A DNA stretch of 64,000 bases. Origin: Cytophaga hutchinsonii ATCC 33406 (GTDB lineage Bacteria; Bacteroidota; Bacteroidia; Cytophagales; Cytophagaceae). The position numbers and the translations under genes were made by a program. Below the pieces are notes generated by a model that worked only from the letters and a program-made list of their open reading frames with translations, had not been told where the DNA came from and searched no databases. The stretch spans positions 3,426,001 through 3,490,000 of the forward strand of contig NC_008255.1 of the NCBI RefSeq assembly GCF_000014145.1. The letters run 5' to 3'. How positions within the stretch are numbered: position 1 is the first letter of the stretch; every line of letters begins with the position of its first letter. Shown piece by piece: positions 40,232 to 41,790 of this stretch.

Positions 40232-40474
40232 TTATGATAAAGGCTTTCCGTCAGCCATAGACATTTCGTTTAACGCAATTTTCACCAGATCATATAACGA
40301 CCAGATGCCTAAACCTCCAAGTGTAATAAATTGTAAGATCCAGGTTTTATATCCCATCATAAAACGGTGCCCGCCGGCAAAACCAAACAATAAGCAAACA
40401 ATATACATACGTGTGCGTGGTTGCACATCGGCGTTTTTAAGATAATACGGTAATGAATTTATTTTTTCAAACAT
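40232..40474 (-). CDS. Small TM2-domain membrane protein
   Basis: The 80-residue protein has the TM2 pattern of two membrane helices joined by a short polar turn, with the conserved GGHRFMMG at the end of helix 1 and GIWSLYDLV at the end of helix 2. Role unknown. A longer frame from 40498 begins with TTG inside the thioesterase gene; ATG 40474 starts 5 bp after the thioesterase stop and is preferred. It is third in the operon with the hydroxylase homologue and thioesterase. Confidence 0.82.
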   Translation of the reverse strand: MFEKINSLPYYLKNADVQPRTRMYIVCLLFGFAGGHRFMMGYKTWILQFITLGGLGIWSLYDLVKIALNEMSMADGKPLS

Positions 40475-40479
40475 AAAAT

Positions 40480-41043
40480 TTAATGTACAATCTGGCAACG
40501 CTCGTGTTTTAAAAGATCCATATCATGTTCTTCAGAATGCGGTTCATCGCCTAATTTTTTTAATTCTTTTTTATAGAATTCTTTTATTTCTTTGCGCTTC
40601 ATCGCATCCAGAAAATTTTTAACCTCTTCTTTTGATTCAAGAATTAAACCAGGCACTTTTTTTATCTGATCGGTTTGATCTTTAGATACCATGGTAAAGT
40701 AAGAAGTGTTGGTATGGCGTACCGTTGAGGTATGTACATTTTCAGCAATAACTTTGATGCCTATTACCATAGAACTGTTCCCTACATAATGCACGGACGC
40801 GATCAAAGCAACCAGCTCCCCTACTTCTATCGGCTGAAGGAAATCAACCGTATCAACGGATACGGTTACACAATAGCCGGATGAGTGTTTGGAAGCACAA
40901 GCATACGCAGCCTTATCCATAAGCGACAACAAAATACCACCGTGAATTTTGCCTCCAAAGTTTGCATACGATGGAATCATTAATTCAGTAATGGTTGTTT
41001 GCGAAAACTTAACCGTTCTATAAAACTTTTTATCTTCTGTCAT
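40480..41043 (-). CDS. Acyl-CoA thioesterase (hotdog fold)
   Basis: The 187-residue protein is a hotdog-fold thioesterase of the YciA/BACH type, which hydrolyses acyl-CoA to free acid and CoA. Key segments are GGKIHGGILLSLMDKAAYAC (around residues 30-50), holding the hotdog helix, and SVDTVDFLQPIEVGE. The C-terminal third is charged and helical. It begins 1 bp after the aromatic hydroxylase homologue stops, so the two are co-transcribed; a metabolic link is unproven. Confidence 0.85.
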   Translation of the reverse strand: MTEDKKFYRTVKFSQTTITELMIPSYANFGGKIHGGILLSLMDKAAYACASKHSSGYCVTVSVDTVDFLQPIEVGELVALIASVHYVGNSSMVIGIKVIAENVHTSTVRHTNTSYFTMVSKDQTDQIKKVPGLILESKEEVKNFLDAMKRKEIKEFYKKELKKLGDEPHSEEHDMDLLKHERCQIVH

Positions 41044-41044
41044 A

Positions 41045-41761
41045 TTATTTCAAACGATTCGCCAATTCCGATTTAATGGTATCCATTGAAGCCAGCAGCT
41101 GTTCGTAAGAACTTATAACAAAATATTTTTCCTGGAAATGATTTTTAACATAGGGTGTATCCATAATGATTGAAACATTATGATCGTATTTCGGAACACC
41201 TGCATTCAACGCATAAGAAGCCTCATTACGTGAGGTGATCATATGTGCACCATAGATACGCAATGATTTATTGGCTTCAATCAAACCATACTGAATGGTA
41301 TGCCAGTACACACGTTTCAAATATAAAATTGCCTTCGGATCGTTAATGTATGTTAAGGCTAATTCCCCTAATTGTTCCAAATACAGGCAATAGGTTGGAA
41401 TATACAGCAAAGAGGTGTGACCAAATACATCATGAAAAATATCATATTCATCTTCCATTTTATCGACCTGATCAATACTGCGGACCCATGTTCTGCAAGG
41501 ATATAACTTGTCTGCCAGCATGCTTATGAATTGCGTATCGTCAACCATATCTTCCAATGGCACAATTCTCCAATCCGTGTGCTTTGCAAGGTGTTCATTT
41601 ATTTCCTCCACATTCGGCACACGATCGCCGGGTAATCCTATGGTCCGAATTCCGATCATTACGCTTTCGTCTGCAACATCACCTAAAAAATTTAAGATTC
41701 TACTATAGGCAGTTGCCCAGATCTTATTTTCTTCTTCTGTGTAATTATGAATTTGATCCAT
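41045..41761 (-). CDS. Aromatic amino acid hydroxylase homologue with altered iron-ligand motif
   Basis: The fold matches the biopterin-dependent aromatic amino acid hydroxylases (phenylalanine 4-monooxygenase type): CRTWVRS corresponds to the TQYIRH region and FHDVFGH carries the two iron His (His110 and His115). The third ligand, Glu in the family motif TVEFG, is here Gln157 (codon CAG) in HTIQYG, and YGAG is YGAH. So it may be inactive, use another ligand, or do other chemistry. The longest frame starts with TTG at 41785; ATG 41761 is preferred (238 residues), 21 bp after a perfect TAAATTTG -7 box (41790-41783). It heads an operon with the thioesterase and TM2 genes. Confidence 0.85.
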   Translation of the reverse strand: MDQIHNYTEEENKIWATAYSRILNFLGDVADESVMIGIRTIGLPGDRVPNVEEINEHLAKHTDWRIVPLEDMVDDTQFISMLADKLYPCRTWVRSIDQVDKMEDEYDIFHDVFGHTSLLYIPTYCLYLEQLGELALTYINDPKAILYLKRVYWHTIQYGLIEANKSLRIYGAHMITSRNEASYALNAGVPKYDHNVSIIMDTPYVKNHFQEKYFVISSYEQLLASMDTIKSELANRLK

Positions 41762-41782: not shown

Positions 41783-41790
41783 CAAATTTA
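41783..41790 (-). promoter_or_regulatory. Candidate -7 element for the hydroxylase operon
   Basis: TAAATTTG on the minus strand fits TAnnTTTG exactly and predicts a start site near 41777, 16 nt before the ATG at 41761. It overlaps the alternative TTG start at 41785, which argues against that start. Confidence 0.4.

Follow-up and report, generated by a model that had tools for sequence, protein, structure and literature searches.

The two-histidine, one-carboxylate metal triad is treated as a defining feature of the aromatic amino acid hydroxylases (AAAHs), a family that takes in the human enzymes linked to phenylketonuria and to the synthesis of neurotransmitters. A gene of Cytophaga hutchinsonii ATCC 33406 encodes a protein of this fold with glutamine at the place of the carboxylate, and we asked what has become of a hydroxylase built in this way. 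The gene lies in a stretch of 64,000 nucleotides of contig NC_008255.1 (positions 3,426,001 to 3,490,000), referred to here as the window, and positions are counted from its first letter.

The metal site and fold of the window protein

The gene is read on the minus strand from an ATG at 41761 to a final stop base at 41045, with an in-frame TTG 5' of this ATG at 41785. It is a single copy, no other match being found at E values up to 1 in the 4.43 Mb single-contig genome. Its product matches PF00351 (Biopterin_H) across residues 6–234 with 100.5 bits, against a gathering score of 22.7 (E = 1.2e-28), and the phenylalanine hydroxylase (PheH) of C. violaceum aligns over nearly its full length, with about 32% of residues identical across the entire chain. 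The gene, its two downstream neighbours and the residues discussed below are as follows.

41045..41761, minus strand: AAAH-fold protein of 238 aa, assigned from its intact frame, PF00351 match, PheH alignment and predicted fold
40480..41043, minus strand: 4HBT acyl-CoA thioesterase, directly downstream; adjoins the AAAH gene in 16 of 18 carriers
40232..40498, minus strand: TM2-domain protein, third gene of the run; near the AAAH gene in the window and in 13 of 17 relatives
41432..41434, minus strand: His110, first metal-ligand histidine (hPAH His285); His in 68 of 68 aligned sequences
41417..41419, minus strand: His115, second metal-ligand histidine (hPAH His290); His in 68 of 68
41291..41293, minus strand: Gln157 (CAG), at the ligand Glu position (hPAH Glu330); Gln in 18 of 18 family members
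41243..41245, minus strand: His173 of YGAH, at the Gly346 position, candidate replacement ligand; His in 18 of 18, Gly in 50 of 50 others
41300..41302, minus strand: His154, one helical turn ahead of Gln157 and equivalent to Phe/Tyr327; His in 18 of 18, in 0 of 50 others
41444..41446, minus strand: Tyr106, at the Pro281 position in the substrate pocket; Tyr in 18 of 18, Pro in 50 of 50 others
41414..41416, minus strand: Thr116, at the Val291 position, adjoining ligand His115; Thr in 18 of 18, in 0 of 50 others
41315..41317, minus strand: Lys149, at the Ala322 position in the pterin site; Lys in 18 of 18, in 0 of 50 others

Alignment with C. violaceum PheH needs a one-residue gap before HxxxxH and another between HxxxxH and YWYTVEFG, and runs with zero gaps from YWYTVEFG to YGAG, so that Gln157 sits on the Glu of YWYTVEFG. 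The metal site is as the original prediction had described it: both histidine ligands are present in the translation and in the alignment, the codon at 41293–41291 is CAG, and the downstream segments read YGAH, with His173, and TSRNE, in which Ser177 and Glu180 are the only constant positions among relatives. Compared with the C. violaceum enzyme (1LTU/4ETL; TIGR01267), the window protein has the same fold, length, HxxxxH motif, substrate-carboxylate residues and pterin-stacking residues, but differs in the Glu to Gln and YGAG to YGAH replacements and at the P281, V291 and F/Y327 positions.

The predicted model, built on an alignment of 11 sequences, has a mean pLDDT of 89.7. Helix 142–157 is predicted with high confidence, and weaker values (61–64) fall on residues 1–10 and 91–110, the latter being the substrate-loop region that includes His110. 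PheH structures are the best structural matches, with Z scores of 25.9–30.1 among the 50 matches listed (4bpt_A: Z 30.1, rmsd 2.4 over 232 residues), and Foldseek agrees.

A fixed package of changes in the Cytophaga family

We found the AAAH gene in 18 of 19 Cytophaga-family genomes, the lone miss being a genome that is 69% complete; homologues from outside the family are at most about 41% identical to the window protein. The comparison with bacterial PheHs and family homologues that had been proposed as a check places Gln on the ligand-Glu column in all 18 carriers, each of which keeps the two histidines of the triad. Across a wide alignment of 68 sequences (these 18 and 50 others from the order), the ligand column of the 50 holds Glu in 36 and Gln in 14, all of the latter from one other family, f13.

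Gln157 is one of several linked replacements. Seventeen columns separate the clade from canonical sequences, a column being counted when 17 or more of the 18 clade members agree and 11 or more of the 12 best-scoring canonical homologues agree on something different. At five of these (P281, V291, F/Y327, E330 and G346) a single residue is common to all 12 canonical sequences and to a viral set of six viral-contig homologues, which carry Glu at the ligand position; the clade has Tyr106, Thr116, His154, Gln157 and His173 instead. Tyr106, Thr116, His154, His173 and Lys149 occur in 0 of the 50 other order sequences, and Gln157 is shared with the 14 f13 copies. The 18 sequences trace back to a single event, so the co-fixed sites amount to one linked observation. 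The clade retains the counterparts of F254, R270, D282, Y325, W326, S350 and E353, substrate and pterin contacts among them, and in place of the pterin contact Gly247 it has Glu, Asp, Asn or Val.

PheH-like genes with the Glu ligand lie on IMG/VR contigs of 72–247 kb (L064:2953-3705, L065:2962-3684, L066:2935-3705 and L067:2971-3675), one of them near a thymidylate synthase gene. The L064 copy has no PHROGs match, and it is possible that these genes are AAAHs of large phages.

Selection has held the family gene in place. Values of dN/dS are 0.013–0.045 in six of eight clade pairs, with dS above 1, and so saturated, in four of those six; the other two pairs gave no dS. Such strong purifying selection, together with an open frame and Gln in 18 of 18 carriers, upholds the earlier view that the gene is not decaying. 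Decay or sequencing error would have to put the same residue into open frames in 18 genomes at dN/dS far below 1; nothing speaks in its favour and we regard its probability as negligible. A single branch sets the clade off from the other sequences, with 100/100 support and a stem of 0.88 or 1.02 in two trees, which are rooted for drawing only and in which long branches are flagged. Rapid change with constraint after it is consistent with neofunctionalisation.

Which residue, then, might complete the metal site? The original prediction had named Glu162 and His173 as nearby substitutes. Glu162 is not conserved, relatives having Asp, Val, Ala or Thr there, and was rejected, and the invariant His173 stands as the better candidate. 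Its position, Gly346, is described as a substrate-pocket residue, and Gly247 and Ala322 as BH4/pterin-site residues, in excerpts of PMC5046115 and PMC8003416; excerpts of the latter also place Pro281 in the substrate pocket, and one of PMC3821034 links the Gly-Ala-Gly stretch to substrate affinity. We propose that a divalent metal, most likely Fe(II), would still be held by His110 and His115, and that the third protein ligand would shift from the helix position now occupied by Gln157 to His173, giving a neutral site of the 3-His type and leaving Gln157 as a weak ligand or second-sphere hydrogen bonder. The phenyl pocket would be narrowed by His173 and Tyr106, and the substrate would be amino-acid-like rather than L-Phe; Arg94 would hold its carboxylate, and the substrate itself may bind the metal directly.

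There are precedents for such a site. Cysteine dioxygenase, Dke1 and gentisate dioxygenase, as presented in an excerpt of PMC4019311, are 3-His non-haem iron enzymes with the neutral triad proposed here, and the same source notes that some natural 3-His oxygenases bind substrate on the metal; these enzymes have a cupin fold unrelated to AAAHs, however, and the 3-His site of the window protein is putative. Closer in scaffold are the metal-ligand mutants of tyrosine hydroxylase in which, according to an excerpt of PMC2767507 citing Fitzpatrick 2003, the enzyme was converted to a 3-His centre, although this was engineered rather than natural. We found no paper in the open-access literature on a natural AAAH without the Glu ligand or on the Cytophaga gene, which is not proof of absence.

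Taken whole, the reading of the window gene as a neofunctionalised AAAH with His173 as third ligand and a new substrate has, in our estimate, a probability of about 0.47. Metal binding by His173 and a new substrate are both inferred from the invariance of His173, a residue that could simply fill the pocket, and His173 as third metal ligand is a tentative assignment when taken by itself. Doubtful as well is the fullest form of the proposal, a natural, family-wide ligand swap within the AAAH fold in which Glu330 to Gln and Gly346 to His would create a 3-His site on the floor of the substrate pocket, along with a new, possibly pterin-independent oxygenase acting on an amino-acid-like substrate. 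His154 competes with His173 for the role of new ligand: it is as strictly fixed, and the helix on which it lies, one turn before Gln157, is confidently modelled. The excerpts of PMC5046115, PMC8003416 and PMC3821034 do not name Phe/Tyr327 as a residue of the pocket or of the metal site, however, and the helix might have to move before His154 could reach the metal; we consider His154 a highly improbable ligand.

A second glutamine lineage within the order

The 14 Gln sequences outside the Cytophaga family belong to 14 f13 genomes with an AAAH copy reading YGFTVQFG and keeping both ligand histidines (L092-L105, for example L094:2601-3287). Like the window protein, these copies are under purifying selection (dN/dS 0.026–0.089 in five pairs). 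In the tree, starred branches and Glu sequences separate them from the window clade, and their origin is independent of it. Unlike the window protein, they retain Pro281 and Gly346 (Gly346 in 14 of 14) and have exchanged Trp326 for Gly in 14 of 14. Eight Glu copies (YFFTAEFG) nest among them, which implies two origins of Gln within f13 or a single reversion, and in four f13 genomes the Gln copy stands in tandem with a Glu copy.

Elsewhere in the order the carboxylate prevails, a Glu-type copy being found in 150 of the 166 AAAH carriers outside the Cytophaga family. The Glu-type AAAHs of other families (such as L019-L030) are likely orthologues at 38–42% identity which, unlike the window protein, keep YW[YF]T[VI]EFG and YGAG. 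A motif scan of the order (291 genomes, at least 150 places) gave, among the places listed, 122 outside the family reading YW[FY][TS][VI]EF. These correspond to 122 outside carriers of the 166, a match made on genome and motif and not for each place on coordinates. Nine others listed outside the family are chance-like, three of them with Gln and none at the AAAH locus of its genome, and one extra place within the family (G162:C79) is chance-like too. The remaining 44 outside carriers include 13 with Glu, G041 and G070, likewise with Glu, and the f13 genomes, which have a Glu copy in 13 cases, a Gln copy in 14 (four have both) and a homologue without the ligand histidines in five; the AAAH copy of one further f13 genome, G272, was left out of the Gln/Glu count. 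In a scan of 395 genomes of the phylum, ten matched: the window's own and nine with unrelated or stop-containing frames. Both scan patterns demanded Trp before the ligand, and the phylum scan would miss Gln lineages of the f13 type.

The five f13 homologues just mentioned (L114-L118) have open frames in which both ligand histidines are gone, replaced by Ala and Arg or by Gln and Gln, and are likely metal-free relatives of the AAAHs. Their existence in the order, like the loss of the only carboxylate ligand, lends weight to a reading of the window protein as a pseudoenzyme without metal, a sensor or scaffold to which an amino acid or pterin binds. Against it, 18 of 18 members keep both histidine ligands, for which a protein without metal would have no use, and new histidines have been gained at or near the site; we consider this reading unlikely. 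That the window protein is still a metal enzyme seems to us somewhat the better supposition. The odds of this, and of His173 as a ligand, are nevertheless lowered by the f13 Gln lineage without the new histidine and by the homologues without either ligand histidine. Since the f13 Gln lineage keeps Gly346, Gln at the ligand position needs no new His at position 346, and the two groups together indicate that the ligand set of the AAAH fold is less fixed in nature than assumed.

Pathway, neighbourhood and naming of the family gene

The pathway context sets the Cytophaga family apart. Strong HPPD matches (E < 1e-60) occur in 0 of 18 family carriers, whereas they occur in 156 of 166 order carriers outside the family, a contrast that sets one clade against many, so that its Fisher p is not an independent test. 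The window's own genome has no HPPD match; weaker hits in seven family genomes (best 5.7e-34, in G076, the others 5.3e-9 or weaker) are taken as other members of the fold or as fragments. HPPD is strong in 141 of the 150 outside carriers with a Glu copy, and at least 19 Glu-type AAAH genes adjoin HPPD, as read from coordinates. Among f13 genomes with a Gln copy alone, 9 of 10 have HPPD, so HPPD loss does not accompany Gln in f13. Homogentisate dioxygenase (HGD) was found in 0 of 19 family genomes. TyrA (prephenate dehydrogenase) is present in 17 of 19, and tyrosine therefore need not derive from phenylalanine in the family. On this genomic pattern, the AAAH gene of the Cytophaga family has probably left phenylalanine catabolism.

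A pterin-dependent AAAH might nevertheless persist, with the amide oxygen of Gln157 binding iron and the pocket changes only tuning activity or shifting specificity. The fold, both histidines and the equivalents of F254, R270, Y325, W326, S350 and E353 are all compatible with this, and in f13 Gln has arisen without a new His. PCD, which serves pterin recycling, is present in 17 of 18 family carriers (in the window genome at G000:C1:3869544), as one would expect of a conventional pterin hydroxylase; its co-occurrence is uninformative because it is common anyway, in 242 of 291 genomes. The exception among the carriers, G117 (locus L084), is a complete single-contig genome with a Gln-type AAAH and no PCD match, which counts against pterin dependence. 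So do the absence of the HPPD/HGD pathway from the family, the alteration of the phenyl pocket by Gly346 to His and Pro281 to Tyr, and the changes at the pterin site, where Gly247 has become Glu, Asp, Asn or Val and Ala322 has become Lys.

Profile models divide over the same question. With NF008877 (phenylalanine 4-monooxygenase) the window protein scores 280, above the cut-off of 247, in line with a conventional enzyme; of three other clade members scored, two fall under it (232.5 and 235.2) and L009 passes at 249.1. With TIGR01267 (phenylalanine 4-hydroxylase, monomeric), by contrast, all four clade members scored lie under the cut-off of 264.75 (181.6 for the window protein, 187–191 for three relatives), and each of the four Glu-type sequences scored, a viral one included, passes with 278–324. 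The naming of some Gln-type proteins as phenylalanine 4-monooxygenase by NF008877 is likely an annotation error. Weighing these points, we judge a pterin-dependent AAAH to be an unlikely description of the window protein, which is probably neofunctionalised and not a Phe-catabolic hydroxylase.

Its neighbourhood, too, is unlike known PheH settings, as the original prediction had remarked: a thioesterase or TM2 gene within about 1.5 kb of the AAAH gene was found at 0 of 12 canonical loci. In the window, 1 nt separates the AAAH stop from the thioesterase ATG, and the TM2 gene has its TTG start within the overlapping thioesterase gene, an arrangement that suggests translational coupling. The upstream divergent pair is also kept, in 13 of 17 relatives, and general synteny could explain the adjacency; the thioesterase as a functional partner is not built on here. 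In G117, TM2 and upstream-gene matches are absent from the neighbourhood stretch examined.

Standard annotation models would call the window protein phenylalanine 4-monooxygenase, probably wrongly. More broadly, naturally selected lineages without the carboxylate have two or more origins, each accompanied by its own set of other changes, and offer natural experiments on how the third ligand affects reactivity.
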